From Mycolicibacterium sp. (GTDB taxonomy: Bacteria; Actinomycetota; Actinomycetes; Mycobacteriales; Mycobacteriaceae): a stretch of DNA of 64,000 nt. Shown piece after piece: positions 24,853 through 54,811 of this stretch; positions within the stretch are counted from its first letter, which is position 1, and each line of letters begins with the position of its first letter. The position numbers were made by a program, and so were the translations under genes. Below the pieces are notes generated by a model. The model was not told where the DNA came from, did not search any database, and saw only the letters and a list, made by a program, of their open reading frames with translations. Location of the stretch: contig JACJWN010000004.1 in NCBI GenBank assembly GCA_020637165.1, positions 124,001-188,000 of the forward strand. The letters run 5' to 3'.

Positions 24853-24922
24853 TTGGCCTCCCTCCGCCGTCCTAACTGGCTCTGCCGGTCGACTGGGTCC
24901 GTCGGTCAACTGAGTGTGTCGG

Positions 24923-27250
24923 TCAATTGGGCCGGTTGGTCCGACCGCCATCGTCACCGGAAGCCTCCTGCGGCGCCGGGGCGACCGGCGGCTGCTGATT
25001 GGACCCCGGATGCGGGTGGCCCTGCTGCGGCGGGTACGGCTGCTGGGGCGGGTTCCAGCCCTGCGGCGGCGGATACCAGTGGCCCTGCTGCTGGTGCTGA
25101 GGCGGCGGCCATCCGGGCGCACGCCAACCGGCCGGGGCGCCGTAGTCCGGTTGAGTGGGTCCACCAGCCTGCGGCTGGGCCGGCGCCTGCGCCTGGTGCC
25201 GGCCCCCGGAGTGCGTCCCGTTTCCGTTGCCGGTGTGCGCCCGGGTAGCGTCCTGCTGAGCCTGCGCGGCGGCGCTGGCCTCGGCGATCGCCTTTTTGAA
25301 GGCCGGCTCCGGCATGGGCTTGGGCCACGGCTCGCCGCGCTCGATGGCCAGCTCCCCGGGAGTCTTGATGGGTGGCTTGTCCGAGGGGACGCGGCCGCCG
25401 AAGTCGTCGAACATGGTCAGCCGGGGCCGCTTGCGCACGTTGCCGAAGATGGCCTCCAGCTCGGCGCGGTGCAGCGTCTCCTTCTCCAGCAGCTCCCCGG
25501 CGAGCACGTCGAGGACATCGCGGTACTCGGTGAGGATCGCCCAGGCCTCGGTGTGCGCGGCCTCGATGAGTTTGCGCACCTCGTCGTCGATGTCGCGAGC
25601 GACCTCGTGGCTGTAGTCGGCCTGGGTGCCCATGGTGCGGCCCAGGAACGGATCACCGTGCTCGGTGCCGTACCGGACGGCCCCCAATTTGGCGCTCATG
25701 CCGTACTCGGTGACCATCGCGCGGGCGATCTTGGTGGCCTGCTCGATATCGGAGACCGCTCCGGTGGTGGGCTCCCGGAACACCAGTTCCTCGGCAGCCC
25801 GGCCGCCCATCGCGAAGACCAACCGCGCGATCATCTCCGATCGCGTCATCAGGCCCTTGTCGTCCTCGGGCACCGAAACAGCGTGACCGCCGGTGCGGCC
25901 GCGCGCCAGGATGGTGACTTTGTAGATCGGTTCGATGTCGGGCATGGCCCACGCGGCCAGCGTGTGTCCGCCCTCGTGGTAGGCGGTGATCTTCTTCTCG
26001 GTCTCGCTGATCACCCGGCCCTTGCGGCGGGGCCCGCCGATCACCCGGTCGACCGCCTCCTCGAGCGCGGCGCCGGTGATGATCGTGCCGTTCTCCCGGG
26101 CCGTCAGGAGCGCGGCCTCGTTGATCACGTTGGCCAGGTCGGCGCCGGACATCCCCACCGTTCGCTTGGCCAGGCCGTCCAGGTCGGCGTCAGGGGCCAG
26201 CGGTTTGCCCTGGGCGTGCACCCGCAGGACGGCCTTACGACCGGCCAGGTCGGGGCTGGAGACCGGAATCTGGCGGTCGAATCGACCGGGCCGCAGCAGG
26301 GCGGGGTCAAGAATGTCCGGGCGGTTGGTAGCCGCGATGAGGATGACGCCCTGCCGCTCGCCGAAACCGTCCATCTCGACCAGCAGCTGGTTGAGGGTTT
26401 GCTCGCGCTCGTCATGACCGCCGCCCAGGCCTGCGCCGCGCTGGCGACCCACCGCGTCGATCTCGTCGACGAAGATGATGCAGGGCGAGTTCTGCTTGGC
26501 CTGCTCGAACAGATCGCGCACCCGGGACGCGCCCACACCGACGAACATCTCGACGAAATCCGAGCCGGAGATAGTGAAGAAGGGCACCCCGGCTTCGCCT
26601 GCCACCGCCCTGGCCAGCAGGGTCTTACCGGTGCCGGGCGGCCCGTAGAGCAGCACGCCTTTGGGGATCTTCGCGCCCAACGCCTGGTATCGGCCGGGAT
26701 TCTGCAGGAAGTCCTTGATCTCATAGAGTTCCTCGACCGCCTCGTCCGCGCCGGCGACGTCGGCGAAAGTGGTCTGGGGCATGTCCTTGGTCAGCTGCTT
26801 GGCCCGGGACTTGCCGAAGCCGAATCCCATCCGCCCGCCGGTCTGCATCCGAGAGAACAGCACGAACAGCGCGATCAGCAGCAGCAGGGGAAGCATGTAA
26901 ACCAGCAGCGAGCCCAGGACGCTGGGCTGGTTGACCGCGGTGTTGGTCTTGACGCCCTTGCCATTGAGGGAGTCGAACAGCGGCACCGCGTAGCCGGTCG
27001 GGTACTTGGCGATGACCTTGGTGGAACCGTCAGTCTCGTCGCTGGCGCTCTTCAACTCCAGCCGCAACTGCTGCTCGCGGTCATCGATCTGTGCGGTCTT
27101 CACATTGTCGCCGTTGATCTGGGCCACCGCGACGGAGGTGTCCACCGGCTTGAAGCCGCGGGTGTCGTCATTGAGGTAGAAGAACAACCAGCCCAGCAGC
27201 AGCACGGCGGCGATCACCGTCAAGGTGCGGATAACGTTTTTCCGGTTCAT
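24923..27250 (-). CDS. ftsH: FtsH, membrane-bound ATP-dependent zinc metalloprotease
   Basis: Protein of 775 residues. Transmembrane helices lie at about 8-26 and 115-135 around an extracytoplasmic domain. The AAA+ module has Walker A '[19 protein letters not shown]' near residue 200, '[13 protein letters not shown]', and the second region of homology 'RPGRFDRQ'. The protease site HEGGH is near residue 425. A C-terminal extension of about 135 residues is rich in Gln, Pro and Gly, as in other mycobacterial FtsH proteins. It degrades misfolded membrane and short-lived proteins. It is divergent from ephA across 165 bp. Confidence 0.97.
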
Positions 27251-27415
27251 CGAGCATCGGCCCGCAGGGCCCCGTCCTTCCCATCGCTGCCTGAAGTCTC
27301 TCAGGCTACCGTTACCCCAACGTCGGGCGGGTCCCCGAGGTTTCCCGGTCGTGATCGGCCGCCCGAATCCGGGCGACTTCGCACCTTGCGGTACGGCTGT
27401 GCTTGGCTGAACACC

Positions 27416-28381
27416 GTGGTCACACCGACCGAACAGGTTTTCCGGGTCAACGGGGTCCGGCTGCGGGTGATCGAGGCGGGCCCGCGGGGCGCTCCGTTGG
27501 TGATCCTGGCCCACGGCTTCCCAGAACTGGCCTATTCCTGGCGCCACCAGATCCCCGCGCTGGCTGCTGCGGGCTATCACGTCATGGCGCCGGACCAGCG
27601 CGGTTACGGCGGTTCGTCGCGCCCGGAGGCCGTGGAGGCCTATGACGTCGCCGCCCTGACCGGAGATCTGGTGGGGTTGATCGACGCCGCCGGCGCCGAG
27701 CGCGCGACGCTGGTCGGCCACGATTGGGGAGCGGTGCTCGCCTGGAGCGCACCGCTGCTGCACCCGGACCGGGTGGCCGCGGTGGCCGGCCTGAGCGTTC
27801 CGCCGGTGCCCCGGCCGCTCACCCCACCGACCGAGGCGTTCCGGCGGATCTTCGGCGACAACTTCTTTTATATGCTTTATTTCCAGCGGCCCGGTGCCGC
27901 CGACGCCGAGATGGCCGCCGATCCGCGGCGCACGATGCGGCGGATGCTCGGCGGGATGGGAATGCCCGAGAGCAGCGATGCCGCGCAGCGGATGCTGGCG
28001 CCCGGCCCCGCGGGGTTCATCGAGCGGCTGCCCGAACCGGACCGGCTGCCGGACTGGCTGAGCCCCGCCGACCTGGACCGCTACGTCGCCGAGTTCAGCC
28101 GCACCGGCTTCACCGGCGCCCTGAACTGGTACCGCAACTTCGACCGCAATTGGCGGATCATGGGCCATGCGGCCGCACGGACCATCGACGTTCCGGCCCT
28201 GTTCGTCGGCGGTACCGCCGACCCGGTGCTGGGTTTCACCAAAACCGGCCGCGCCGCGGAGGTGGTCACCGGTCCCTACCGGCAGGTGATGCTCGACGGC
28301 GCCGGGCACTGGATCACCCAGGAACGCCCCCGGGAGGTCAACACCGAGTTGTTGACGTTCCTGTCCGAGGTGAACGCCTGA
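27416..28381 (+). CDS. ephA: Epoxide hydrolase, EphA-like
   Basis: Alpha/beta hydrolase of 321 residues. The oxyanion motif HGFP is in '[19 protein letters not shown]', the nucleophile is Asp103 in '[10 protein letters not shown]', and His298 in '[11 protein letters not shown]' is the base. An Asp nucleophile with HGFP defines epoxide hydrolases. Near-identity of many segments with recalled M. tuberculosis EphA supports the name. The GTG at 27416 is used because '[19 protein letters not shown]' then begins close to the N-terminus. In M. tuberculosis the espACD genes lie between ftsH and ephA; they are absent here. Confidence 0.9.
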
Positions 28382-34419: not shown

Positions 34420-35388
34420 TCAGCGCGAGTCGCTGAACCGCGTTTTGATCAGGCTGGCGACCATGGTCAGGAACAGGGTGAGCACGATCACCGCCAGACT
34501 CAGCAGGGTGGGCATCTCGGGCACGGCGACGGCCCGGCCACCGTTGATGAAGGGCAGATCGTTCTCGTGCAGGGCGTGCAGCAACAGCTTGACGCCGATG
34601 AAGAACAGGATGAAAGCCAGGCCCTGGGACAAATAGATCAGGCGACCGAGCAGATCACCGATCAGGAAGTACAGCTGGCGCAACCCCATCAGCGCGAACA
34701 CATTGGCCGCGAACACCAGATACGGCTCTTTGGTCAACCCATAGATCGCCGGGATCGAATCGAAGGCGAACAGCAGGTCGGTGGTGGCAAGGGCGACGAT
34801 CACCAGGAACATCGGCGTCATCACCCGTTTGCCGCCCCGTTTGACGTAGAGCTTCAGTCCGTGCCAGGTGTGGGTGGAGTTCAGGTAGGTCTTTGCGAAC
34901 CTGACCACCGCGTTGTCGGCATCGTCGCTGTGCTCGGTGTCGCGGGCGAGCTTGACCGCGGTGAAGACCAGGAAAGCCCCGAAGAAGTAGAAGATCCACG
35001 AAAACTTTTGGATGGCAACGGCCCCCAGAGCGATGAACACCCCGCGGAACACCAGCGCCAACACGATCCCGACCAGCAGCGCCTGCTGCTGGTAGATCCT
35101 CGGGACCTTGAAGCTGGCCATGATGATGATGAAAATGAAGAGGTTGTCCACCGAGAGGCTGTACTCGGTGAGCCAGCCCGCATAGAACTCCAGCCCGAAC
35201 TGGCTGCCGTGGTAGTGCCACACCCAGAAGCCGAACAGCAGCGCCAGCCCGACGTAAATGCTGAGCGCGGTGACACATTCACGCCGGCTCGGCTCGTGCG
35301 GCCGGCGACCGAACACGACGACGTCCACCACAAGCACCGCCAGCGTCACGGCCATGGTGACGGCCCATTCGAGCCCGGATACGTTCAC
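34420..35388 (-). CDS. TerC-family integral membrane protein
   Basis: Protein of 322 residues with 8-9 membrane helices. The two signatures 'TEYSLSVDNLFIFIIIM' and 'LATTDLLFAFDSIPAIYG' hold the conserved aspartates thought to bind a metal. TerC proteins are tied to tellurite resistance or, in other bacteria, to Mn2+ export for metalation of secreted proteins. GTG 35388 is chosen because 'NVSGLEWAVTMAVTLAVLVVDVV' begins the first helix. It is divergent from the NRPS operon across 224 bp. Confidence 0.87.
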   Translation of the reverse strand: MNVSGLEWAVTMAVTLAVLVVDVVVFGRRPHEPSRRECVTALSIYVGLALLFGFWVWHYHGSQFGLEFYAGWLTEYSLSVDNLFIFIIIMASFKVPRIYQQQALLVGIVLALVFRGVFIALGAVAIQKFSWIFYFFGAFLVFTAVKLARDTEHSDDADNAVVRFAKTYLNSTHTWHGLKLYVKRGGKRVMTPMFLVIVALATTDLLFAFDSIPAIYGLTKEPYLVFAANVFALMGLRQLYFLIGDLLGRLIYLSQGLAFILFFIGVKLLLHALHENDLPFINGGRAVAVPEMPTLLSLAVIVLTLFLTMVASLIKTRFSDSR

Positions 35389-35598
35389 GCGGTCAGACCT
35401 CCGGCCGTTTCCAACACGCCCGAGGTCTCTTCCGCCGCCGAGGCGGCCCGCGGAACCGGACGGCCGACGGTGGCCGACGTGGTGACGACACCGCGACGAA
35501 GGAATACTCCCCTCTGCGCCCGCCAGTGTGGCAGGCCCAGTTCGTTTCGGCGACACCGGGTCAGCCCCGAGCACGCCCCGCGCCGCGGCCGTTGACCC

Positions 35599-35612: not shown

Positions 35613-38600
35613 GTGGCGCCGCCTCCGATTCCCGCTCAGTACCTGTTATCGGGCCGGGCACCGTCCCCGCGAACACTCGTCGACATCCTGCAGGACACCG
35701 CGGCCCGCTACCCGGACGCAGCGGCCATCGACGACGGCGAGGTCCAGCTGACCTACGCCGAGGTCGTCACCGACATCCGGGCGGGCGCCCGGTGGTTGTC
35801 GACGCACGGGATCGGCAGGGGCGACCGGGTAGGGATTCGGATGCCGTCCGGAAGCTACTCGCTCTACCTGGCGATTCTGTCGGTGCTGGCGGCCGGAGCG
35901 GCCTACGTGCCGGTGGACGCCGACGACCCGGATGAGCGGGCGGCACTGGTGTTCTCCGAGGCCGGGGTCGTGGGGATCCTCACCGAGGACGGGATACTTC
36001 CCGGTACGGGCACCTCACACGGACGGAGCGCCGAGTCGCCCCGGGTCGGCGATGACGCCTGGATCATCTTCACCTCCGGCTCCACCGGAACCCCGAAGGG
36101 TGTGGCGGTCACCCACCGCAACGCTGCGGCCTTCGTCGATGCCGAGGCGCGGATGTTCCTGCGGGACAACCCGATCGGCCCCGGCGACCGGGTGCTCGCC
36201 GGTCTGTCGGTCGGCTTCGACGCATCCTGCGAGGAGATGTGGCTGGCCTGGCGGCATGGCGCCGCCCTGGTGCCGGCTCCGCGCGCCCTGGTGCGCAGCG
36301 GTATGGACTTGGGCCCCTGGCTGGTCGCCCGGGACATCACCGTGGTCTCCACGGTCCCCACCCTGGCGGCACTGTGGCCGGCCGAAGCGCTGGAGGCGGT
36401 GCGGCTGCTGATCTTCGGCGGAGAGGCCTGTCCACCGGATCTGGCAGACCGGTTGGCCGTGGACGGCCGCGAGGTGTGGAACACCTACGGCCCCACCGAG
36501 GCGACCGTGGTGGCCTGCGGCGCTCAGGTCCACCCCGGCACACCGGTCAGCATCGGGCTGCCATTGGCGGGCTGGGATCTGGCTGTGGTTGATTCCACGG
36601 GTACCCCGGTCGCGGTGGGCGACGTCGGCGAGTTGGTGATCGGAGGCGTCGGGCTGGCCCGCTACCTCGATCCGGAGAAAGACGCCGAGAAGTACGCGCC
36701 GATGCCGACACTGGGGTGGACGCGCGCCTACCGCAGCGGCGATCTGGTCCGGCTAGAGTCCGACGGCCTCTACTTCCAGGGCCGCGCCGACGATCAGGTC
36801 AAGGTCGGCGGGCGCCGCATCGAACTCGGCGAGGTGGATTCCGCCCTCGTCAACCTTCCCGGAGTGAGCGGCGGGGCCGCCGCGGTGCGCAAGACCGCCA
36901 GCGGCACCCCGGTGCTCGTCGGCTACATCACCTCCGTCGACCCGAACTTCGACCTGGCGACCGCCCGGGCGCACCTGGCCGAGTCGTTGCCCGCGGCGCT
37001 GGTGCCACGCCTGGTGCTCATCGAAGGCGAGCTGCCCACCCGCACCTCGGGAAAGGTCGACCGCAACGCGCTGCCGTGGCCGCCGCCCGGCGATGTCCCC
37101 GACGTCGGATCGCAACTGGGCGGCACCATGGGCTGGCTGGCAGGGCTGTGGCAGGACGTCCTGGGCACGGTGGTCGACGGGCCGGAGGCGGATTTCTTCG
37201 CCCTCGGCGGCGGTTCACTGTCGGCGGCGCAACTGGTGGTGCTGTTGCGCCAGCGGTTCCCCGGGATGACCGTCGCCCACCTCTACGACCACCCCCGGCT
37301 CGGGTCACTCGCCGGTTTCATCGACGAGACTGCCGCCGAACAGCCGGAACCGATCGCCGTCGAGCCGAGGACGGTCGCGCCGACCCCGGTCGCGGCACAG
37401 GTGACCCAGGTCGCCCTCACGGTGCCGCTGGCCACTCTGACCGCCCTGCAATGGCTGACCTGGCTGGCGCTGCTCAACAACGTCGCGGCGTGGTTGCACC
37501 CGATGCCGTGGCTGTTCACCACACCGTGGTGGCTGGTGGCCGTCGCGTTCGTCGCCTTCATCACCCCACTGGGGCGGATGGGCATCGCGGTCGCCGGCGC
37601 GCGGATTCTGCTCCGCGGACTGAAACCGGGCACCTACCCGCGCGGCGGGTCCGAACATCTGCGGGTATGGCTGGCCGAGCGCCTCACCGAGGCCAGCGGC
37701 GCCGAGAACCTCGGCGGGGCCCCGTGGCTCGTCTACTACGCACGTGCGCTGGGTAACTCGGTCGGAAAGGGCGTGGACCTGCATTCGGCCCCACCGGTCA
37801 CCGGCATGCTGACCCTCGGCCACCGTTGTTCGGTCGAACCCGAGGTCGACCTGACCGGACACTGGATCGACGGCGACCTGTTCCACGTCGGACCCATCAC
37901 GATCGACAACGACGCCACCATCGGGGCGCGAACCACCCTGCTGCCGGGGGCGGTGGTGGGTAAGGATGCCGACGTGGCGGCAGGCTCGTGTGTGGTGCGC
38001 AAGGTCAAGGCCCGGCAGTACTGGAAGGGTTCACCGGCGGTGAAGTCCGGCAAGGCCCGCCACCCGTGGCCCGACCACCGCCCGCCGCGCGCCGTGCACT
38101 GGGTGGTGATCTACGGGATCTCATCGTTGTTGCTCGGTGCGCTGCCACTGACCTCCCTCGGGGTCGGGCTTGCCCTGTTGGCCTGGGCCGGCCGGGACGA
38201 ACCGACTCTGGGTGCAGCCCTGCTGGCTTCGGCCCCGTGGATTCCGGTGGCCACCCTGCTCGCCGCGGTGGTCTACGCGGGAATGACGGTGCTGGGTGTG
38301 CGGATCCTGGCACTGGGCCTGCGCGAGGGCTACCACCCGGTGCGCAGCCGGGTCGGCTGGCAGCTGTGGGCCACCGAACGGCTGATGGACGCCGCACGCA
38401 ACTATCTGTTCCCGCTCTATGCCAGCATGCTCACACCGGTGTGGCTGCGCATCCTGGGGGCGAAGGTCGGCCGCGACACCGAGATCTCGACCGCCCTGCT
38501 CACGCCGAAGTTCACCATCATCGAGGACGGCGCGTTCCTGGCCGATGACACGATGGTGGCCTCCTACGAACTGGGCGGCGGCTGGATTCACATCGCCAAG

Positions 38601-39530
38601 ACAACCGTGGGACGACGGGCCTTCCTGGGCAACTCCGGTATCACCCAGCCCGGCCGGCGCGTTCCCGACGACGGCCTGGTGGCGGTGCTCTCCGCGACAC
38701 CGCCCAAAGCCAAGAAGGGCTCGTCGTGGCTGGGCAGCCCGCCGATCCGGCTGCGCCGAAAAGCCGACAGCGCCGAGGCGTCGCTGACCTACTCGCCGCC
38801 GGCCCGGCTCAAGGCCATGCGCGGGGCCGTGGAGACCTGCCGGCTGCTGCCGATGATCGTGACGTTCGCGATCGGGGTGGGGACCCTGGCGGCACTGCAA
38901 GAGATCGCCGCGCGGGGCGGCTATTGGCTGGCCGCGCTGACCGGCGGAGTGGTGCTGCTGATCGCCGGGGCGGTGGCCGGCGGTACCGCGGTAGCCGCGA
39001 AATGGCTTGTGGTGGGCCGTATCAGAACCGGCGAGCAGCCGTTGTGGTCGTCATTCGTCTGGCGCAACGAAGTGGCCGACGCCTTCGTCGAGACGGTGGC
39101 CGCGCCGTGGTTCGCCCGAGCGGCCACCGGCACCCCGGTGATGAACCTGTGGCTGCGGGGTCTGGGGGCGAAGATCGGCCGGGGAGTGTGGTGCGAAACC
39201 TACTGGCTGCCCGAGGCGGACCTGGTCACCCTGGGCGCGGGCAGCACCGTCAACCGGGGCTGCGTGGTGCAGACCCATCTGTTCCACGACCGGATCATGC
39301 GCATGGACGCCGTCACCCTGGAGGCCGGTGCCACACTGGGACCGCATTGCGTGGCACTGCCCGCCTCGCGGATCGGCGCCGGGGCGACGATCGGACCCGC
39401 CTCGCTGGTGATGCGCGGCGACGAAGTGCCGCCCTCGACACGCTGGCAGGGTAATCCCATCGCGCCCTGGCAGGAGCGCCGGAAGCGGGGCAAGGCCAGA
39501 AAGAAGGAGGCGGCCGAGGCCGACACATGA
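35613..39530 (+). CDS. Pls/PosA-type non-ribosomal peptide synthetase (A-T plus three membrane/beta-helix repeats)
   Basis: Protein of 1305 residues from the GTG at 35613 (an upstream start at 35526 lacks homology). Adenylation domain, residues about 10-490: A3 'FTSGSTGTPKG' near 153, A4 'FDASCEEMW' at 202-210, A5 'NTYGPTE' at 290, A7 'YRSGDLVRL', A8 'GRADDQVKVGGRRIELGE' and A10 'TSGKVDRNAL' with Lys481. A carrier domain follows with the phosphopantetheine serine Ser535 (GGGSLS). The rest is three tandem units of a membrane-helix pair (about 600-670, 828-903, 1079-1135), each followed by a left-handed beta-helix hexapeptide region. No condensation or thioesterase domain is present. This is the architecture of epsilon-poly-L-lysine synthetase. 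Aligning with GrsA by eye, the specificity residues read DAESIGTVVK, close to known lysine codes. It probably polymerises or exports a basic amino acid product. Confidence 0.88.
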   Translation: MAPPPIPAQYLLSGRAPSPRTLVDILQDTAARYPDAAAIDDGEVQLTYAEVVTDIRAGARWLSTHGIGRGDRVGIRMPSGSYSLYLAILSVLAAGAAYVPVDADDPDERAALVFSEAGVVGILTEDGILPGTGTSHGRSAESPRVGDDAWIIFTSGSTGTPKGVAVTHRNAAAFVDAEARMFLRDNPIGPGDRVLAGLSVGFDASCEEMWLAWRHGAALVPAPRALVRSGMDLGPWLVARDITVVSTVPTLAALWPAEALEAVRLLIFGGEACPPDLADRLAVDGREVWNTYGPTEATVVACGAQVHPGTPVSIGLPLAGWDLAVVDSTGTPVAVGDVGELVIGGVGLARYLDPEKDAEKYAPMPTLGWTRAYRSGDLVRLESDGLYFQGRADDQVKVGGRRIELGEVDSALVNLPGVSGGAAAVRKTASGTPVLVGYITSVDPNFDLATARAHLAESLPAALVPRLVLIEGELPTRTSGKVDRNALPWPPPGDVPDVGSQLGGTMGWLAGLWQDVLGTVVDGPEADFFALGGGSLSAAQLVVLLRQRFPGMTVAHLYDHPRLGSLAGFIDETAAEQPEPIAVEPRTVAPTPVAAQVTQVALTVPLATLTALQWLTWLALLNNVAAWLHPMPWLFTTPWWLVAVAFVAFITPLGRMGIAVAGARILLRGLKPGTYPRGGSEHLRVWLAERLTEASGAENLGGAPWLVYYARALGNSVGKGVDLHSAPPVTGMLTLGHRCSVEPEVDLTGHWIDGDLFHVGPITIDNDATIGARTTLLPGAVVGKDADVAAGSCVVRKVKARQYWKGSPAVKSGKARHPWPDHRPPRAVHWVVIYGISSLLLGALPLTSLGVGLALLAWAGRDEPTLGAALLASAPWIPVATLLAAVVYAGMTVLGVRILALGLREGYHPVRSRVGWQLWATERLMDAARNYLFPLYASMLTPVWLRILGAKVGRDTEISTALLTPKFTIIEDGAFLADDTMVASYELGGGWIHIAKTTVGRRAFLGNSGITQPGRRVPDDGLVAVLSATPPKAKKGSSWLGSPPIRLRRKADSAEASLTYSPPARLKAMRGAVETCRLLPMIVTFAIGVGTLAALQEIAARGGYWLAALTGGVVLLIAGAVAGGTAVAAKWLVVGRIRTGEQPLWSSFVWRNEVADAFVETVAAPWFARAATGTPVMNLWLRGLGAKIGRGVWCETYWLPEADLVTLGAGSTVNRGCVVQTHLFHDRIMRMDAVTLEAGATLGPHCVALPASRIGAGATIGPASLVMRGDEVPPSTRWQGNPIAPWQERRKRGKARKKEAAEADT

Positions 39531-40855
39531 AAAACCGCGCCAAGAAGTCCAGCACCCCGCCGGTCATCGATCCCTACCTGCCGAACAACGGGAACTTCGG
39601 CTATCGGGTGTCGCGCTACGAGCTGGACCTGCAGTACAAGGTCAACAGCCATCGGCTTGCCGGTGCGGCGACGATCACCGCGGTCACGCTGGCCTCGCTG
39701 CAGACGTTCACCCTGGACCTGTCGGACGCACTCGGTGTCACCAAGGTCACCGTGAACGGCCGCCGTCCCGCGAGCTTCTCCACTTCGGGCGGGAAACTAC
39801 GGATCCGGCTGGCCGAACCGCTGCCGACCGGATCGGCGTTGACGATCGCGGTGCGCTACGGCGGCTCGCCGAAACCGATCCGGACCGTGTGGGGAGAGGT
39901 GGGTTTCGAGGAACTGACCAACGGCGCGCTGGTCGCCGGACAGCCCAACGGCTCTCCCTCCTGGTTCCCCTGCGACGACCATCCCAGCTCCAAGGCCAGC
40001 TACCGGATTCAGATCAGTACCGACAGCCCGTATTACGCGGTGGCTCCCGGCGAGCTGGTGAGCCGGCGGGTGCGCGCCGGACAGACGGTGTGGACCTACG
40101 AGCAGCCCGAGCCCACATCGACCTACCTGGCCACGCTGCAGATCGGGATGTACGGCCTGCACCGGATTCCCAAGGCCCCGGTGGCCATGCATGCCGTCAT
40201 CCCCGGCCGGCTGCGCGCGAATTTCGATCACGACTTCGGCCGTCAGCCGCAGATGCTCAAGCTGTTCGTCAAGCTGTTCGGCCCCTATCCACTGAGCAGC
40301 GGCTACACCGTCGTGGTGACCGAGGACGATCTGGACATTCCTCTTGAAGCGCAAGGGGTTTCGATCTTCGGCGCCAACCATTGCGACGGCGCGCGCGGAT
40401 CGGAGCGCCTCATCGCCCACGAACTGGCACACCAGTGGTTCGGCAACAGCGTGACCGCCCGGCGCTGGCGCGACATCTGGCTGCACGAGGGTTTCGCCTG
40501 TTACGCCGAATGGCTGTGGTCGGAACACTCCGGGGGCCGGAGCGCCGGGGATCTCGCGGCCGATTACCACCAACGGTTGCTGGCCGCCCCGCAGGATCTG
40601 CTACTGGCCGACCCCGGGCCCCGCGACATGTTCGACGACCGCCTTTACAAACGTGGCGCCCTGGTGGTTCACGCCCTGCGCGGCATCATCGGAGACGACA
40701 GATTCTTCGCGTTGTTGCGTGACTGGACCACCCGGTACCGGCACGGGACGGTCGTCACCGACGATTTCACCGGCCTTGCCGCCAACTACGCCGACGTCTC
40801 GCTGCGGCCCCTGTGGGAGTCCTGGCTGTATTCGACGGGAGTCCCCCCGCTGTGA
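39527..40855 (+). CDS. M1-family zinc aminopeptidase
   Basis: Protein of 442 residues whose ATG overlaps the NRPS stop (ATGA). The zinc site HExxH-x18-E is complete: His298, His302 and Glu321 in 'IAHELAHQWFGNSVTARRW...WLHEGFACYAEW'. The N-terminal beta saddle domain (about 1-200) precedes the catalytic domain. The GxMEN-like exopeptidase loop is replaced by 'LEAQGVSIFG', which keeps a glutamate. The large C-terminal helical domain of full-length PepN is missing; the protein ends after a short helical region. No signal peptide is seen. Coupled translation suggests that it processes or degrades the NRPS product. Confidence 0.88.
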   Translation: MKNRAKKSSTPPVIDPYLPNNGNFGYRVSRYELDLQYKVNSHRLAGAATITAVTLASLQTFTLDLSDALGVTKVTVNGRRPASFSTSGGKLRIRLAEPLPTGSALTIAVRYGGSPKPIRTVWGEVGFEELTNGALVAGQPNGSPSWFPCDDHPSSKASYRIQISTDSPYYAVAPGELVSRRVRAGQTVWTYEQPEPTSTYLATLQIGMYGLHRIPKAPVAMHAVIPGRLRANFDHDFGRQPQMLKLFVKLFGPYPLSSGYTVVVTEDDLDIPLEAQGVSIFGANHCDGARGSERLIAHELAHQWFGNSVTARRWRDIWLHEGFACYAEWLWSEHSGGRSAGDLAADYHQRLLAAPQDLLLADPGPRDMFDDRLYKRGALVVHALRGIIGDDRFFALLRDWTTRYRHGTVVTDDFTGLAANYADVSLRPLWESWLYSTGVPPL

Positions 40856-42156
40856 CCGACGCCGGCGCGCCGTTCGACGCGGTGGGCGCCACCGCCGGGC
40901 CGGCCGCCCGGAGCAGTGTCGCGCGGGTCGGCATCGCCACCGCCGTCACCGCCGTCTGCGGATACGCGGTGCTGTATCTGGCGGCCAGGAAGCTCGAACC
41001 GGCCGGGTTCTCGGTATTCGGGGTCTTCTGGGGCGCCTTCGGCCTGGTGACCGGAGCGGCCAACGGACTGCTGCAGGAGGCCACCCGGGAGGTCCGCGCC
41101 ACCTTGCGTCACCCGCCCGGGCCCAGCCCTCGGAATTACGGCCCCCGGGACTGGGGCCTCCGGGATTGGGGCCCGCACACCCGGCCGATGTGGATCGGCG
41201 CGGGCGTGGGACTCGGTGCGGCGATCCTCATCGCCGGTACCGCTCCGCTGTGGTCGGCGCGGGTCTTCGCCGACGCGCGGCCGCTGTCGGTAACTCTGCT
41301 CTCCCTTGGACTCGCCGGATTCTGTCTGCACGCCACACTTCTGGGCATGCTGGCCGGCACCGACCGCTGGTCGCAGTACGGGTCGCTGATGGTGACGGAC
41401 GCCGTGATCCGGGTGGTCGTGGCCGCGGCCGCCTTCGCGCTGGGTTGGGGACTGGCCGGCTTCCTCTGGGCCACCGTTGCCGGCGCACTGGCCTGGCTGC
41501 TGCTGCTCGCCGCCTCGTCGGGGGCCCGCTCGGCGGCCGGATTGCGCACCGCTGGGAGGACTTCGGCATTTCTGCGCGGGGCCGCGCACGCGATCGCCGC
41601 GGCGGGCGCGAGCGCGGTGCTGGTGATGGGCTTCCCCGTGCTGCTAAAGACGACCTCCGGCGAACTCGGGGCCGCGGGGGGCGTGGTGATCCTCGCGGTG
41701 ACGCTGACCCGGGCGCCGCTGCTGGTGCCGCTGACGGCCATGCAGGGCAATCTCATCGCCTACTTCGTCGACCACCGCAGCACGCGGCTGCGCGCCTTAC
41801 TGGCCCCGGCCGGGATCGTCGCAACCATCGGCGGGATCGGGGTGGTGGGCGCCGCACTCATCGGCCCCTGGCTGATGCGGGTGGCCTTCGGCCCTGAATA
41901 CCGAACCAGCGGTGTGTTGCTGGCCTGGCTGACGGTGGCGGCGGTGTCGATCGCGCTGCTCACCCTGACGGGTGCGGCGACGGTCGCCTCCGCCCTGCAC
42001 CGGGCCTATTCGATCGGCTGGGTGGGGGCGACGGTGGCGGCCGCACTGCTGCTCACCCTTCCGCTATCCCTGGAGTCCCGGACCGTGATCGCCCTTATGT
42101 GCGGACCGCTGGTCGGTATTGGCGTGCACCTGACGGCGCTGGCTCGGGCCGATTAG
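40852..42156 (+). CDS. Polytopic membrane protein, MOP/polysaccharide flippase type (Rv3630 family)
   Basis: Protein of 434 residues with about 12 membrane helices, starting at a GTG inside the M1 gene stop (GTGA overlap). Helices are arranged as in MATE/Wzx-like flippases; 'VFWGAFGLVTGAANGLLQEATREVRA' is typical of the first half. It is the likely counterpart of M. tuberculosis Rv3630. A role in moving a lipid-linked envelope precursor is inferred from the following PpgS gene, which makes polyprenyl-P-GalNAc. No direct evidence for its substrate. Confidence 0.8.
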   Translation: MTDAGAPFDAVGATAGPAARSSVARVGIATAVTAVCGYAVLYLAARKLEPAGFSVFGVFWGAFGLVTGAANGLLQEATREVRATLRHPPGPSPRNYGPRDWGLRDWGPHTRPMWIGAGVGLGAAILIAGTAPLWSARVFADARPLSVTLLSLGLAGFCLHATLLGMLAGTDRWSQYGSLMVTDAVIRVVVAAAAFALGWGLAGFLWATVAGALAWLLLLAASSGARSAAGLRTAGRTSAFLRGAAHAIAAAGASAVLVMGFPVLLKTTSGELGAAGGVVILAVTLTRAPLLVPLTAMQGNLIAYFVDHRSTRLRALLAPAGIVATIGGIGVVGAALIGPWLMRVAFGPEYRTSGVLLAWLTVAAVSIALLTLTGAATVASALHRAYSIGWVGATVAAALLLTLPLSLESRTVIALMCGPLVGIGVHLTALARAD

Positions 42157-42180: not shown

Positions 42181-42876
42181 GTGGTCATCGAACAATCCGG
42201 CGTCTGGATCATCGTTCCAGCTTTCAACGAGGCGCGGGTCGTCGGCGAGGTCGTCACGGCCCTGCGGTCGTCGTTCTCCCACGTGGTCTGCGTGGATGAC
42301 GGAAGTCGCGACCACACCGCCGAACTCGCCCTGCGGGCGGGCGCGCACGTGCTGTCCCATCCGGTCAACCTGGGCCAGGGGGCAGCCATCCAGACCGGGG
42401 TGGAGTACGCCCGCCGGCAGCCGGGGGCGTTGGCGTTCGCCACCTTCGACGCCGACGGCCAGCACCGGATCGGCGACCTCGCTGCCATGCTGAAACGGCT
42501 CGGCCGCGGTGACGTCGACATCGTCATCGGAACCCGGTTCGCCGGGTCGGCCGAGAACCGCACCCCGCCCCTGAAACGCCTCGTGCTGCGGACGGCGGCG
42601 CGGCTGAGCCCGAGCAGCCACCGACTCGGACTCACTGACGCGCACAACGGGTTGCGGGTGTTCAACCGTCGGGTGGCCGACCATCTGGACCTGACCATGA
42701 ACGGAATGAGTCACGCCGGGGAATTCGTGAAGCTGATCGACGAGAACGGTTGGCGGGTGGCCGAGGCACCGGTGGAAATCCTCTACACGAAGTACTCCCT
42801 GACCAAGGGCCAACCGTTGCTCAACGGGGTCAACATCGTCTTCGACGGGTTCCTGCGCGGGAGGATGCGCCGATGA
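42181..42876 (+). CDS. ppgS: Polyprenyl-phosphate N-acetylgalactosaminyl synthase (PpgS)-like GT2
   Basis: GT2/GT-A glycosyltransferase of 231 residues. UDP-sugar motifs: 'WIIVPAFNEARVVGEVV', 'VVCVDDGSRDHTAELA', the metal motif 'FDADGQH' and 'GTRFAGSAENRTPPLKRLVLR'. In M. tuberculosis the homologue Rv3631 loads GalNAc on polyprenyl phosphate, the donor for the galactosamine on arabinogalactan. It starts at a GTG 24 nt after the flippase and overlaps the next gene by 4 nt. Confidence 0.88.
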   Translation: MVIEQSGVWIIVPAFNEARVVGEVVTALRSSFSHVVCVDDGSRDHTAELALRAGAHVLSHPVNLGQGAAIQTGVEYARRQPGALAFATFDADGQHRIGDLAAMLKRLGRGDVDIVIGTRFAGSAENRTPPLKRLVLRTAARLSPSSHRLGLTDAHNGLRVFNRRVADHLDLTMNGMSHAGEFVKLIDENGWRVAEAPVEILYTKYSLTKGQPLLNGVNIVFDGFLRGRMRR

Positions 42877-46840: not shown

Positions 46841-49549
46841 GTGCGCACGAGTTACCAGGCTTCGCGGTTGGAAGCGCGGCTGTTGTGGTGGGCGCGTGGT
46901 GCCGTTGCGGCGGTGCTCGGTGTGACGGTGTCGGCATGGGCCGGCTGGATGACCGGCCGGCAGTACTTGACGCGGATATTTGCCAGCTGGCCGGTGATGA
47001 CGCCGTGGACGGCCGTGCTCCTCAGCGCGCTGGGTGTGTCGATCCTGGTTCAGCTGGGAGTCGTTTCGGGCCCACGGGTGTGGTTCGGGCGCGCTGTCGC
47101 CGTGGCTGCCGGCGCTGTGGCGGTGGTTTTCCTCCTTGCGTACGCGACCGGTAGGTCGCCGGGTGTGGACCTGTTGTGGTTCGGTGACGAGGTTCGCGCC
47201 GTGCAGGAGACCTGGCCCGGCCGTCCCAGCCCGCCGACTTCGTCGACGGTGGCGCTGCTGGCGGTGGCGGTTGGGCTGACGTCGGTTGACCAGCGGTGGG
47301 CCCGCGTCGCTCGGGCCATGGGGCTCGCGTTTGCTACCGGTCTGGCTTTCGTGTCGATCGGGGCCTATCTGTTCGGTGCGCTGTCCATCGTCACTGTCAC
47401 GCCGTCAACCGGTGTCGCCATCTCGACGGCCTTGTGCTTGACGTTGCTGGGTCTTGCAGCGGTGCTGGCTCGCCCCGACCTCAATCCCGTGGCCTGGATG
47501 CTGCAGCGGCCTGATCGGGCGTCGCTGGTGCAATTGGCCGGCGTCGTCGGCGCCATCCCGGTCATGATCGCGTTGATTTACGGCGCGCTCGTGCTTCGCC
47601 TTGAGCAAGAGCGGTTGGCGTGGGCCATCGCCGTGTTGTCAGCGACCGCCGTCGCCGGCATCGCCCTGTTTTTCGTCTTCGACCGCGAACGGCGAACACG
47701 GCTGGCAACTGAGGCGCGATTGGAGTCGATCGTCGCCAACGCTCCCAATCCGGTCGCCATTCGAACCCCTGGGGGCGGTTTCGACTACGTGAACCAGGGC
47801 TTCAGTGACATCTGGGGCCAGAAGTATCCAGACCAGATCCTCGGCAAGACGCCACGGGATCTCGCTCCGCTGGACGCGGAGTTGGGCAGGAAGCTCACCG
47901 AAGTCGAAGCGGCGGTGATGAGGGGTGAAACCTCCGCGTTCGAGCACATCTTCCCCGGCTTCGGCGATCCGGTGACGGTCGAGTTTCAGTTATTCCCGGT
48001 GCGCGACGCCAGTGGCAAGGTCGTCAACTTCGGGGCGATCGGAACCGACGTCACCGCGCGCGACCGCCAGGAGCAGGCGCTGCGCCGGGCCACCGCGAGG
48101 GCGAAGGCGGCGATGCGGGATGCCGAGGCGGCGAATCGGGCGAAGACCAGTTTCCTGGCGACGATGAGCCATGAGTTGCGCACTCCGCTCAATGCGATTC
48201 TGGGGTTCTCGGATCTGCTGCGCCGGGATCCGACTCTGTCGTCGGGGCAGCGCGATGAACTGGACATCATCAGCCGCAGTGGCATGCACCTGCTGGGGTT
48301 GATCAATCAGGTCCTGGACATGGCCAAGATCGAATCGGGGCAGACGGTTGCCGAGATGTCGGCGGTCGATCTGCCGATGCTGGTCGACGACGTGGACGCG
48401 ATGATGCGCACCCGGGCGGAGTCCGCGGGATTGCAGTTCGTGGTGGAGGTGGCCGACGATGTGCCCCGCTACATCAGAAGCGACGGGCAGAAGCTTCGGC
48501 AGATTCTGCTGAACCTGGTGGGTAACAGCCTGAAGTTCACCACCGAGGGAGGTGTCAGCGCGCGGGTGAAGACCAGCGGGGACACGGGGTCCAGCACGCA
48601 TGCCGGACTGAGGTTGGTGATCGAGGTCGAAGACAGCGGGGCCGGGATCCCGGCGGCCCAACAGCAGCGGATTTTCGAGCCTTTCGTCCAACTCAATGAA
48701 CGCGGCGGTGCCGGCACCGGATTGGGTCTTTCCATTGTCCGGGAGTACGCGCGACTTCTCGGCGGCACCGTCGAGGTGCGCAGCGAGGTGGGGTCGGGAT
48801 CGCTGTTCCGGGTTAACCTGCCGGTGGAGGTGGCGAAGGCCGAGGAGGTCACGACCGTCGACGAGTCCCGGCACGTGGTGGGGTTGGCCCCGGGCCAGCC
48901 GGACTGGCGGGTCCTGGTCGTCGAGGACGATCCGGTCAACCGCATCCTGCTGGGGGGTCTGCTCGAGGACGTGGGTTTCACGGTGGCCTTCGCCGAGAAC
49001 GGTGCCGAATGCCTCAAGGTTTTCGGTGAGTTCCGGCCGCACTTCATTTGGATGGACCGCCGGATGCCGGTGATGGACGGCCTCGAGGCCACCTCGCTGA
49101 TCCGGGCGCGCGAGGACGGCGGTGAGGTGAAGATCGCGGCATTGACAGCGTCGGTGTTCGAGGAGCAGCGCGAAGAGTGGGTCCGTGCCGGTATCGACGG
49201 TTTCGTCCGCAAACCATTTCGCCAATCGGAGATCTTCGATTGCATGCACCGCCTGCTCGGTGTGGACTACCTCTACCGCGAGCAGGCCCAGCAGAACCAG
49301 GTGCCGTCCGGGGCGGAGCTGTCACGGGAATTGGCGAAGTTACCCGCATCGGTGCGCGCACAACTGACCGAGGCGCTGATCCTCGGCGCCACCGCCCGGC
49401 TGGCCGAAGTCCTGCAGGAGGTTCGGCCCGTCTCCGCCGAACTGGCCGGCACGCTGGAGCAAGCGATCGCGGATTTCAACTACGCCCTCGTGCTCGACGC
49501 GCTCGACGCGGTGGAGCCGGACGGGACCAACGACAGAAGGCCTGACTAG
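46841..49549 (+). CDS. Hybrid sensor histidine kinase (8-TM sensor, PAS, HisKA-HATPase, receiver)
   Basis: Protein of 902 residues. Eight membrane helices fill residues ~15-285. One PAS domain follows (about 293-405, 'LESIVANAPNPVAIRTPGGGFDYVNQGF'). The phosphoacceptor helix has His444 in 'ATMSHELRTPLNAILGF'. The ATPase shows N ('ILLNLVGNSLKF'), G1 ('VEDSGAGIP') and G2 ('GAGTGLGLSIV') boxes. The receiver has Asp739 in 'IWMDRRMPVMDG'. A conserved ~60-residue tail after the receiver lacks a histidine. It is a paralogue of the two other hybrid kinases nearby. The signal is unknown; output may run through the receiver-phosphatase protein downstream. Confidence 0.92.
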   Translation: MRTSYQASRLEARLLWWARGAVAAVLGVTVSAWAGWMTGRQYLTRIFASWPVMTPWTAVLLSALGVSILVQLGVVSGPRVWFGRAVAVAAGAVAVVFLLAYATGRSPGVDLLWFGDEVRAVQETWPGRPSPPTSSTVALLAVAVGLTSVDQRWARVARAMGLAFATGLAFVSIGAYLFGALSIVTVTPSTGVAISTALCLTLLGLAAVLARPDLNPVAWMLQRPDRASLVQLAGVVGAIPVMIALIYGALVLRLEQERLAWAIAVLSATAVAGIALFFVFDRERRTRLATEARLESIVANAPNPVAIRTPGGGFDYVNQGFSDIWGQKYPDQILGKTPRDLAPLDAELGRKLTEVEAAVMRGETSAFEHIFPGFGDPVTVEFQLFPVRDASGKVVNFGAIGTDVTARDRQEQALRRATARAKAAMRDAEAANRAKTSFLATMSHELRTPLNAILGFSDLLRRDPTLSSGQRDELDIISRSGMHLLGLINQVLDMAKIESGQTVAEMSAVDLPMLVDDVDAMMRTRAESAGLQFVVEVADDVPRYIRSDGQKLRQILLNLVGNSLKFTTEGGVSARVKTSGDTGSSTHAGLRLVIEVEDSGAGIPAAQQQRIFEPFVQLNERGGAGTGLGLSIVREYARLLGGTVEVRSEVGSGSLFRVNLPVEVAKAEEVTTVDESRHVVGLAPGQPDWRVLVVEDDPVNRILLGGLLEDVGFTVAFAENGAECLKVFGEFRPHFIWMDRRMPVMDGLEATSLIRAREDGGEVKIAALTASVFEEQREEWVRAGIDGFVRKPFRQSEIFDCMHRLLGVDYLYREQAQQNQVPSGAELSRELAKLPASVRAQLTEALILGATARLAEVLQEVRPVSAELAGTLEQAIADFNYALVLDALDAVEPDGTNDRRPD

Positions 49550-49868
49550 ACCGGCGACACCGTGTCGGCGCCCGGTGCCGTGTCTTCGGGCCGAGTTCAG
49601 CTGCAAATTGGCTAGAGCGCAATTCCGACACCTGCGCGATATCCGCGTCATCAAAACCAGAACGACGCTGCGGAAAAGCGCAACCCACGAAGAGTTTTAG
49701 CTCCGCACATGAGTTGTGGATTCTCGGTCTCCATCTCATTTTCCAGTCGTCTGACCTAGGTCTCATAATTCGCGAGTGCCGAAGATGTCTCCGTACCGAG
49801 ATGGACCCGACTAGATTGCCGATGAGGAATTGGTCTCTGGGGTCCGGGTTTTATCGGAGGTGGTTCTC
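49550..49868 (+). promoter_or_regulatory. Promoter region of the second hybrid kinase, with a perfect 10-bp palindrome
   Basis: No gene in this 319-bp stretch. The palindrome GACCTAGGTC at 49753-49762 lies just upstream of CATAAT (49764-49769), a possible -10, so it may be an operator. A second candidate, GACTAGATT at 49809-49817, is shared with the first kinase leader. The ribosome site GGAGGT at 49856-49861 gives 7-nt spacing to ATG 49869. Confidence 0.4.
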
Positions 49869-51713
49869 ATGACGCCCGTGGTAACAGGTGCTGACGTGAA
49901 CCGGGGTTTCAGCGACCGGCTTGCTGAGTGGCCGAGATGGGCAAGATACCTGGCCAGCGCGGGTGTCGTGGCTATAGCTGCCTTGCTGAGGATCTGGCCG
50001 CTGGGGTCGCTGGGAAATATTCTGGTGTGGCTGACCTTCTACCCGGCTGTGCTCGCGGCCGCCGTTGTCGGCGGGTTCGGCTGTGGCCTGTTCGCCGTGG
50101 GCCTGACGGTTGTGAGCGTTGTCTTCGGATGGCCCCTACTGGTGGCGACGCCGTTCATCGCGACCAGGGCGGACTGGTTGGGCATGGGGGTGTTCATCCT
50201 CAATGGGTTATTGATGTCCGCCGTCGCCGAGGGAATGCTCCAAGCGAATAGGAGAGCACGGGCAGCGAAAGTCCATGCCGAGGCGGCGAACAGGGCGAAA
50301 AGTGCCTTTCTGGCGACCATGAGCCACGAATTGCGCACCCCGCTGAACTCAATCCTAGGGTTTTCCGATCTCCTGCGCCGGGATCCGACCCTGTCGGAGG
50401 GGCAACGGGAGGATCGTGACATCATCAATCGCAGCGGTGCCCATCTGCTGGGGTTGATCAATCAGGTGCTGGATACGGCGAAGATCGAGTCCGGACGAAC
50501 GCGGCTGGAGCCAGGGCCGGTCGACGTTCGGTCCCTGGTTCACGATGTCGACGGGATGATGCGCACCAAGGTCGAGGCGGCCGGACTGCAACTGGTAGTG
50601 GAAGTGGCCGACGACATCACCCGCTATGTCACCGTCGACGAACAGAAGGTCCGGCAGATCATCCTCAACCTCGTGGGCAACAGCGTGAAATTCACGACCG
50701 AAGGTGGGGTGACTCTACGGGTGAAGACGGTTGGCCAACCTCCAAATTCGACTCGGCAAGGATTGCAGCTGGTGATCGAAGTGGAGGACAGCGGTTGCGG
50801 TATCCCCGACGCTGAGCAGCAGCGGATCTTCGAACCGTTTGTCCAACTTCAGGAGGTCGGCGCGCCCGGCACCGGGCTGGGCCTGTCCATCGTGCGGGAG
50901 TACCTCGACTTGATGGGGGGCGGCGTCGAGGTGAGCAGCCGAGTGGGGTCCGGATCGCTGTTCCGGGTATGCGTACCCGTCGAAATTTCACCTTCCGAGG
51001 ACGTCAAACTCGTCAACGAGTCCAACCGTGTTGTCGGACTCGCTCCGGGACAACCGTCCTGGCGGGTGCTGGTGGTCGAGGACGAACCTAACAATCGGCT
51101 GCTACTCGGGCGCTTACTGGAGCAGGTGGGATTTGTCGTTGCCTGCGCGGAGAATGGCGCGGAGTGTCTGAAAGTCTTCCCCGAGTTTCGCCCTGACTTC
51201 ATTTGGATGGACCGGCGAATGCCGGTGATGGATGGCTTGGAAGCCACGACGCGCATCAGGCAGCGCGCCGATGGACGTACGGTGAAGATCGCGGCCCTCA
51301 CCGCCTCGGTGTTCGAAGACCAACGATCGGAATGGCTGGAAGCCGGCATCGACGGATTCGTCCGCAAACCGTTCCGGGACTCGGAGATCTTCGACTGCAT
51401 GGCGCGCCTCCTTGGCGTGGAATACCTCTACCAAGAGCAGCGTGACCAAGCTGATACCCGATCCGTGATCGACTTCACCCGGGAGTTGCCAAGACTGCCG
51501 GCACCAGTACGTACTCAACTAGCCGACGCGCTCGTCCTGGGCGACACCACCCAACTTTCGCCGCTACTCGAGCAGGTCCGCGAGATCAGCCCTGGCTTGG
51601 CGGATCCACTGGCACACCTGATCGCCGACTTCAACTACGCTCCGGCGCTGGAGGCGCTGGAGGCGCTGGAAGCGCTGGAAGCCGATCCAGACACCTCGAG
51701 GGGGCGTTCGTGA
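49869..51713 (+). CDS. Hybrid sensor histidine kinase (short membrane sensor, HisKA-HATPase, receiver)
   Basis: Protein of 614 residues. The N-terminal ~120 residues form about four membrane helices ('FYPAVLAAAVVGGFGCGLFAV'), similar to DUF4118/MASE-type sensors; there is no PAS domain. His153 is the phosphoacceptor ('ATMSHELRTPLNSILGF'), the ATPase boxes are intact, and the receiver Asp448 lies in 'IWMDRRMPVMDG'. The kinase-receiver core is close to that of the preceding gene. The tail after the receiver is conserved and ends in a LEALEALEALEA run. The stop overlaps the next start by 4 nt, so kinase and phosphatase are coupled. Confidence 0.93.
   Translation: MTPVVTGADVNRGFSDRLAEWPRWARYLASAGVVAIAALLRIWPLGSLGNILVWLTFYPAVLAAAVVGGFGCGLFAVGLTVVSVVFGWPLLVATPFIATRADWLGMGVFILNGLLMSAVAEGMLQANRRARAAKVHAEAANRAKSAFLATMSHELRTPLNSILGFSDLLRRDPTLSEGQREDRDIINRSGAHLLGLINQVLDTAKIESGRTRLEPGPVDVRSLVHDVDGMMRTKVEAAGLQLVVEVADDITRYVTVDEQKVRQIILNLVGNSVKFTTEGGVTLRVKTVGQPPNSTRQGLQLVIEVEDSGCGIPDAEQQRIFEPFVQLQEVGAPGTGLGLSIVREYLDLMGGGVEVSSRVGSGSLFRVCVPVEISPSEDVKLVNESNRVVGLAPGQPSWRVLVVEDEPNNRLLLGRLLEQVGFVVACAENGAECLKVFPEFRPDFIWMDRRMPVMDGLEATTRIRQRADGRTVKIAALTASVFEDQRSEWLEAGIDGFVRKPFRDSEIFDCMARLLGVEYLYQEQRDQADTRSVIDFTRELPRLPAPVRTQLADALVLGDTTQLSPLLEQVREISPGLADPLAHLIADFNYAPALEALEALEALEADPDTSRGRS
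51645..51680 (+). repeat. Four tandem 9-bp units near the end of the second kinase gene
   Basis: GCGCTGGAG/GCGCTGGAA is repeated four times in frame and codes for the LEA repeat of the C-terminus. Units 1-2 and 3-4 are identical pairs. Copy-number change would keep the frame. Confidence 0.7.
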
Positions 51714-54700: not shown

Positions 54701-54811
54701 GCCGAATCACAGGACTGGTCCCTCGACGACCTCATCGACGAACTACGCGCCGCGACTCCATCGGGTGAGTTCGAGGACGACTGCTCACTGATTCTGTTGA
54801 AGTTCGACTGA
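51710..54811 (+). CDS. Response regulator with five PAS domains and a PP2C (SpoIIE/RsbU-type) phosphatase
   Basis: Protein of 1033 residues. A receiver (1-120) has the phosphorylatable Asp53 in 'VMLDIRMPGLSG'. Five PAS-like domains follow at about 132-255, 262-385, 390-505, 520-640 and 655-770; the last two are near repeats of each other ('RRSVD..AVGMCLV'). A PP2C phosphatase at about 825-1033 carries 'EELGGDCLDFYWID', 'IDVSGHGLEPALLAV', 'YASAGAPPAL' and 'SDGASE'. Such phosphatases dephosphorylate anti-anti-sigma proteins, so it may link the hybrid kinases to a sigma factor. No anti-sigma or antagonist gene is in the window. Confidence 0.92.
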   Translation: MIGSIVVVDDEPGTLRLLKTLLETDGYEVRAFTGGAAALRSIGVKAPDLVMLDIRMPGLSGFDVCGMLKADSGSAEIPVIFLSAATDIDDKLQAFASGGVDYIVKPFEKAEVLSRARTHIALAHSRRENARYKQLIDTSNVATAMSRVDGTLSEVSKAAVELSGFDMDTALQMSWMQFISEPDLGTLLGVVEDLLTHRTDSYRGEHTLIHADGNPRRIDMSISCIREPDGQPEYLVFQAVDITAEAQLREHLAESRRLLEASADSMLDPQVLFDAVRDHEGQVVDLHYRAVNRAACQYLQTEQADLLGSSVLDKTPGLKTSGLWARYLRCLEDGEPVILSDFSYDNEILHDTRRYDIRATRAGPNLLSLTWTDVTDRYHAAARLAASEERYRLLAENSADIVCHLRDGRPVWVSPSIESALGAPPQFWLGQELFAYAPPEDLAEQTTLMAKLNGGEAVNHRVRVKGVDGVTHWFDLRAQPYYDANGNQDGAIAALRLVDAEVAAERQIEKARRQQARADALYRRSVDSSAVGMCLVDAEGGFVDVNGALCEFFGYDAQTLKSKTWQELTAEEYLQADLDKVAAVLAGEIDSYRMVKQYIHADGHLIWGDLSVSCVRDDTGRFEVFISQITDITAEVQGRELLEQARREKERDDERFRRSVDNAAVGMCLVTPEGRVTQINNALCRLLGLPPDVAIGTHWRDVTEPEYLEEEQSNVDGLLEGRIDSYRMLKRYQLADGRVIWGDTTVSAIRDDDGKLDYMITLIADVTARVEADERNRLLARKLQQQTDRLKTELNSAADYMSSLTPTFLSGPVTVSARYLPSEELGGDCLDFYWIDDDHLLVRLIDVSGHGLEPALLAVSVHNLMRSGTLGPEILLSPAAVLTELNRLFEMKQQKDHYFTMWFGIYERSTRTLRYASAGAPPALAFSSTTGTAVTSTELATPAAPIGMFEDTEFTSGTYQVPHGCRILVHSDGASEIVLADGRQLTLAAFRELADRVAESQDWSLDDLIDELRAATPSGEFEDDCSLILLKFD

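Follow-up and report, generated by a model that had tools for sequence, protein, structure and literature searches.

The 64,000-nt stretch of Mycolicibacterium sp. DNA analyzed here, referred to below as the window (assembly GCA_020637165.1, contig JACJWN010000004.1, positions 124,001 to 188,000, forward strand), contains a pair of overlapping genes, pls and pldII. From their sequences, and with good confidence, these are read as encoding an epsilon-poly-L-lysine (epsilon-PL) synthetase and a coupled PldII-type M1 peptidase. Epsilon-PL is an antimicrobial polymer and food preservative. The family, its product, and the operon are already known from Streptomyces and Corynebacterium, and homologues have been predicted in Nocardia; the interest here lies in how widely, and how tightly paired, pls and pldII occur among mycobacteria, and in a candidate catalytic motif that can be tested. 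The main features, in window coordinates (A, adenylation; T, thiolation; TM2, membrane-helix pair; C1–C3, repeat units; NRPS, nonribosomal peptide synthetase; HMM, hidden Markov model), are:

35613..39530, + strand: pls, epsilon-PL synthetase homologue, 1305 aa, A-T-(TM2-C1)(TM2-C2)(TM2-C3), from profile searches and repeat comparison
35691..37073, + strand: adenylation domain, residues 27–487 (27–350 by Pfam AMP-binding, the remainder by match to PDB 7WEW)
37134..37322, + strand: carrier (thiolation) domain, residues 508–570 (Pfam PP-binding), with the phosphopantetheine Ser535 at 37215–37217
37404..39461, + strand: NRPS terminal (polymerization) domain TIGR02353, residues 598–1283 (745.3 bits, cut-off 423.1)
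37404..38090, + strand: repeat unit C1, helix pair 600–618/635–653 (HMM-HMM comparison, hydropathy)
38091..38861, + strand: repeat unit C2, helix pair 839–857/878–896 (HMM-HMM comparison, hydropathy)
38862..39482, + strand: repeat unit C3, helix pair in 1069–1127, the first helix overlapping the last part of C2 as delimited here (HMM-HMM comparison, hydropathy)
39270..39290, + strand: Q1220-x-H1222-x3-D1226, proposed catalytic motif, C3 only (conservation)
39527..40855, + strand: pldII-like M1 peptidase, 442 aa (Pfam Peptidase_M1 and M1_N)

Domain Organization of the Probable Synthetase

The pls frame is uninterrupted, with a further in-frame GTG upstream at 35526, and its GC content by codon position (0.71/0.54/0.88) has the pattern of a coding frame. 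The initial annotation had described one adenylation and one carrier domain (Ser535), three tandem units of paired membrane helices and hexapeptide repeats, and no condensation or thioesterase domain, and had recognized in this the layout of Pls/PosA enzymes; each of these points held up. Pfam finds AMP-binding (27–350), PP-binding (508–570), and Hexapep (762–794), and nothing further at E values up to 0.001, hence neither a condensation nor a thioesterase domain. The TIGR02353 match spans profile positions 2–695 of 695, and the domain order, the pocket residues, and the operon partner described below are likewise of the Pls/PosA type: A-T, followed by three repeats of a helix pair and a hexapeptide-type unit.

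This is the only one of five TIGR02353 matches in the 3.85-Mb genome (32 contigs) to exceed the cut-off. The weak ones are short matches to hexapeptide regions, of a kind also given by 13 of 14 control genomes; at E ≤ 1e-50, Corynebacterium glutamicum is the sole control genome with a match. The genome also has two PF01648 phosphopantetheinyl transferase matches, whose products could prime Ser535.

Conservation was assessed in an alignment of 106 Pls rows, from which four partial sequences (L080, L105, L106, L108) and the window's own (L001) are excluded; since at least two genomes are apparently present twice (L018/L039, L032/L058), the rows are not all independent. The position of Ser535 is Ser in all 106. 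Hydrophobic helices were located by a simple Kyte-Doolittle scan: the mean over these rows peaks at the C1 and C2 helix pairs listed above and in three overlapping windows within 1069–1127, so that a helix pair precedes each repeat. There is an additional peak inside the A domain (83–101), and the window's own sequence has an extra one in the carrier domain (527–545).

The three repeats are related to one another by HMM-HMM comparison (C1/C2, E = 1.5e-14; C1/C3, 1.8e-15; C2/C3, 2.1e-8). Scanned singly, C1 and C3 give Pfam Hexapep matches, under the gathering score, and C2 gives none. Against solved chains the C-terminal region aligns over short hexapeptide stretches only, the best with E = 2e-5 (GlmU, 92 residues), as compared with 745 bits for TIGR02353; a region resembling sugar acetyltransferases alone, which the initial annotation had named as the outcome that would count against it, is thus not what is found. 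A predicted three-fold model of the C-terminal domain of the family is given in PMC10522769.

Adenylation Pocket and Probable Substrate

The closest solved relative of the A domain is PDB 7WEW, the A domain of epsilon-PL synthetase (E = 2.5e-194), with 323 of 487 residues (66.3%) identical. The ten pocket residues, read by the PheA numbering scheme, are D203, A204, E207, S246, I267, G269, T291, V299, V300, and K481 (DAESIGTVVK). The same ten are found in 7WEW and in all 106 aligned rows, and, in a sample of the phylum, in 19 of 26 loci, namely all those with a readable pocket. Position 2 is reported to distinguish substrates by chain length, with Ala for lysine, Met for ornithine, and Phe for the shorter diaminopropionate and diaminobutyrate (PMC10522769). 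Position 2 here is Ala (Ala204) rather than the Met that marks PosA, the delta-poly-L-ornithine synthetase, and position 3 is Glu. The identity with 7WEW and the Ala at position 2 together make L-lysine very probably the substrate of the A domain.

A homopolymer of some other diamino acid (ornithine, diaminobutyrate, diaminopropionate, or beta-lysine) is conceivable, as the same family and architecture yield such products elsewhere (PMC10522769), but it is very unlikely given that all ten pocket positions, including the chain-length residue Ala, equal those of the lysine enzyme, and that an operon with pldII is the context of epsilon-PL synthesis (PMC8117764).

The Partner Peptidase

The start codon of the peptidase gene overlaps the pls stop codon (ATGA, 39527–39530). 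The His and Glu residues of its HExxH zinc site (298–302), along with Glu321, are conserved in all 80 aligned rows. In Streptomyces albulus, translational coupling to pls is described for PldII, which is reported as the major enzyme degrading epsilon-PL (PMC9223678), and a synthetase-peptidase operon is said to distinguish epsilon-PL synthetases from the PDAP and PDAB ones (PMC8117764). By analogy, the PldII-like protein may degrade epsilon-PL.

The pairing is widely conserved. Among the 80 named loci taken as the best of 586 relatives, the peptidase lies within 9 kb of pls in 79, and no more than 60 bases from the pls stop in 73; the remaining locus (L062) stops at a contig edge. Of these 79 junctions, 54 have the 4-base overlap seen here, 14 overlap by one base, 5 are separated by 4–59 bases, and 6 span 526–2107 bases. 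For these counts the peptidase was assumed to start at whichever in-frame start codon lies closest to the pls stop, a choice that favors overlaps. In the phylum sample, a peptidase is found within ~1.5 kb of 18 of the 19 homologues with the lysine pocket, vs. none of the seven without a readable pocket.

Distribution, Descent, and Selection

A sample of the genus (297 genomes, one per species) was surveyed for both genes. TIGR02353 is matched at E ≤ 1e-50 in 220 genomes, 219 of them above the cut-off, and the peptidase at E ≤ 1e-60 in 219. As assembled from the lists of matching genomes, 218 have both genes and 76 neither; two have pls only (G207, G281), and one, from a genome 63% complete (G150), has pldII only. 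Approximately three quarters of the sampled genomes thus carry a gene predicting epsilon-PL, nearly always with the peptidase. In the 17 genomes tested of the 77 without pls, the peptidase query meets only a long M1 paralogue, 27–32% identical.

A tree built by a quick method from 81 rows, with SH-aLRT support values, has one clade (support 100) made up of 32 mycobacterial rows plus five metagenome bins with loose names. It adjoins a clade of Tsukamurella and Williamsia, and Nocardia and Rhodococcus are more distant. The nearest rows to the window's pls are mycobacterial or actinobacterial metagenome bins; together with a ppgS gene scoring over its cut-off, this gives good support to the mycobacterial host named in the initial annotation. 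The history of the module is consistent with ancient vertical inheritance, the two genes having been lost together repeatedly. Both are, by sequence comparison, under purifying selection, with dN/dS against near relatives of 0.14–0.17 for pls (six comparisons) and 0.15–0.19 for pldII (four comparisons).

Two labels in the tree are doubtful: one metagenome bin (L057) bears the title Bifidobacterium breve and groups within the mycobacterial clade, and another (L067) is titled Rhodococcus and assigned to a cyanobacterial family. Five genomes (G030, G209, G069, G200, G228) have two TIGR02353 matches each, and G209 also has four peptidase matches.

A Candidate Catalytic Motif in the Third Repeat

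Four residues of C3, E1201, Q1220, H1222, and D1226, are present in all 106 close rows, and in 26 of 27 more diverse rows, all from Actinomycetota, with PosA and the fungal enzymes outside the set; the remaining row is gapped there. These diverse rows include homologues only 22–31% identical and with no readable A domain. In the 25 near-complete ones, H1222 is the sole invariant histidine of the terminal domain; invariant polar residues include R684, R897, D978, N1007, R1049, R1070, E1153, T1174, R1182, E1201, Q1220, H1222, D1226, and S1264. The counterparts of the motif are not kept in C1, where the histidine may be His, Tyr, or Trp, or in C2, where it is Tyr985, altered in divergent rows. 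H750, in C1, was considered as a second catalytic histidine and dropped: it is His in 78 of 106 rows, Tyr in 24, and Trp in two, and varies among the diverse rows.

Because the motif is invariant in C3 and not kept in the other repeats, a single active site in C3 is proposed, with H1222 as base; we would give this about an even chance of being correct. H1222, with the help of D1226, Q1220, and E1201, would activate the attacking amine. The motif is a concrete target for study of the chemistry of chain growth in the Pls/PosA family.

Some terminal domains occur in other arrangements. Three frames of 860–946 aa from one family (f18; L120, L137, L138) combine a GANSMVM-type carrier-like motif with a complete terminal domain, have no recognizable A domain, and are 23–24% identical to the window's protein. 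Two genomes (G477, G445) have an A-less terminal-domain frame in addition to a lysine-type Pls. In L135, the terminal domain is in an 824-aa frame, and a second frame upstream holds ~350 residues of Pls-like sequence (36% identical); the A domain has possibly split off as a protein of its own.

Possible Function

The TIGR02353 score, the lysine pocket, the overlapping peptidase gene, the co-occurrence of the two genes, and purifying selection on them together make pls–pldII most likely an epsilon-PL synthetase system. The initial annotation had suggested a cationic homo-poly-amino acid or an aminoacyl-modified envelope component; the first is narrowed to epsilon-PL by the pocket and the operon, and for the second the only evidence is the neighboring envelope genes, considered below.

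By analogy with characterized relatives, lysine would be the actual substrate, and a polymer would be made and exported. A cytosolic A domain would activate L-lysine as the adenylate and load it onto the Ser535 phosphopantetheine. In the membrane-bound C-terminal domain, the three repeats would work as one pseudo-trimeric domain, forming, one step at a time, bonds between the alpha-carboxyl of a lysine in thioester linkage and the epsilon-amine of the lysine that follows. The polymer would then cross the membrane or be released, and the M1 peptidase, which probably shares a transcript with pls, would trim or clear it.

The domain order, the three TM-pair/hexapeptide units, and the overlapping M1 peptidase gene directly downstream are all as in S. 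albulus; the A domain resembles the solved enzyme 7WEW in sequence and, fully, in its pocket. The system here differs from that of S. albulus in its mycobacterial host, in being known from genes alone, and in its flanks (terC, and a flippase-like gene and ppgS). Corynebacterium variabile Pls, from a relative in the same taxonomic order, has the pls-peptidase operon and the lysine pocket; it belongs to another genus, and its product has been proven heterologously and in neither the native host nor C. glutamicum (PMC8117764). The same paper reports that this homologue, 51% identical to Pls, made epsilon-PL upon expression in S. coelicolor. Nocardia homologues such as nfa3790 have the same module organization and are predicted poly-lysine synthetases; nfa3790 differs in being from another genus and a prediction only, with 55% identity to S. 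albulus Pls quoted (PMC4035055). Such clusters are reported in 218 Nocardia genomes, out of 263 in all (PMC12153302). PosA of Acinetobacter baumannii shares the TIGR02353 Pls/PosA family and the three-repeat C-terminal domain, but has Met rather than Ala at pocket position 2, an A core with 36% identity to that of the epsilon-PL enzyme, and an ornithine polymer as its product (PMC10522769).

A literature search found no epsilon-PL or NAPAA product ascribed to any mycobacterium, which, with mostly open-access coverage, is weak evidence of absence; the passages checked in PMC9964534 and PMC9820752 contain no mention of either for mycobacteria. This agrees with the initial annotation so far as a described product is concerned, while the rarity it implied does not stand: 220 of the 297 sampled genomes have a match, and both Nocardia (PMC4035055) and Corynebacterium (PMC8117764) had earlier been reported to have homologues.

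Several observations weigh against an active epsilon-PL system. The PldII-like protein has no signal peptide obvious by eye, and has LEAQG in place of the GXMEN-like substrate motif typical of M1 enzymes. For the S. albulus PldII, by contrast, a location outside the membrane is reported (PMC9223678). In C. variabile, neither polymer nor Pls protein was detectable from the native pls, and plasmid-based expression in C. glutamicum gave detectable protein but still no polymer (PMC8117764). As the C. variabile gene gave polymer only in S. coelicolor, the mycobacterial pls may be silent, or need more. Within the genus, three pls copies appear split or weakened, with two partial matches each (G069, G200, G228; best E values 7.0e-103, 8.5e-125, and 8.9e-133); G207 has a lower pls score and no peptidase; and the peptidase match contains a TGA in G006 and G132. 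Finally, the Fisher p of 1.9e-67 for co-occurrence of the two genes overstates independence, because the genomes counted are related.

One alternative is that the enzyme decorates a lipid or glycan of the envelope with a single lysine or a few of them and makes no free polymer. The suggestion comes from two genes on the right flank:

40954..42156, + strand: flippase-like membrane protein (label by eye), part of the frame 40813–42156, which served as query
42181..42876, + strand: ppgS, polyprenyl-phospho-N-acetylgalactosaminyl synthase (NF058614, 389.8 bits, cut-off 370)

PpgS serves in envelope glycan decoration. The flippase-like protein has no Pfam or NCBIfam match, and its gene lies within 9 kb of pls in 30 of the best 80 named loci among the 586 relatives. 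It is retained, however, in all 17 genomes without pls that were tested (of 77), at 70–74% identity, and in 20 of 20 genomes tested altogether; in other mycobacteria pls–pldII occupies a different site, which in G006 is ~180 kb away from the flippase-like gene; and the entire TIGR02353 polymerization domain is conserved. Lysylation of this kind is therefore highly improbable.

Least probable of all is that pls is a relic, intact by chance after loss of expression or activity: 77 of the 297 genomes lack pls, a few copies look split, and the native Corynebacterium gene is silent in culture (PMC8117764), but dN/dS is low against all six near relatives, and the pocket, carrier Ser, and C3 motif are invariant in 106 rows.

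If pls–pldII is an epsilon-PL system, the polymer in mycobacteria could conceivably be an internal or envelope-held polycation rather than a secreted antibiotic, with a cytosolic PldII setting its level, and all Pls/PosA enzymes might polymerize via a single C3 site (E-x18-Q-x-H-x3-D), with C1 and C2 mere scaffold; we regard this combined proposal as speculative and rather unlikely. Whether environmental mycobacteria make epsilon-PL, and why others have lost the pair, are the questions that result.

Genomic Neighborhood

The left neighbor of pls is divergently oriented, and is a flank, outside the pls–pldII module:

34420..35574, − strand: TerC/Alx-family metal homeostasis membrane protein, longest frame taken (TIGR03718, 357.6 bits, cut-off 246.4)

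Farther left are dacB/PBP4 (TIGR00666), ppa, and an OHCU decarboxylase gene; the right side also holds a large membrane protein with no family match. In the genomes without pls, ppa accompanies the flippase-like gene in 17 of 17 fetched stretches and terC in three. Two of these have only ~125 and ~345 bases between terC and the flippase-like gene (L152, L157), an empty site; in the third the two are 5.7 kb apart (L156). In three of six stretches inspected (L141, L144, L153), ppa and the flippase-like gene are separated by a different membrane protein. A functional tie of pls to the right-hand envelope genes was considered and dropped, since the flippase-like gene persists without pls–pldII and the pair can sit elsewhere.

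Elsewhere in the window, three consecutive long frames at 46841–54811 (902, 627, and 1033 aa) match histidine kinases and a response-regulator/PAS protein, by domain-level matches mostly under curated cut-offs. Open frames of 1155 aa (24914–28381, + strand) and 1128 aa (24923–28309, − strand) overlap almost fully on opposite strands; one of the two is presumably a by-product of high GC.

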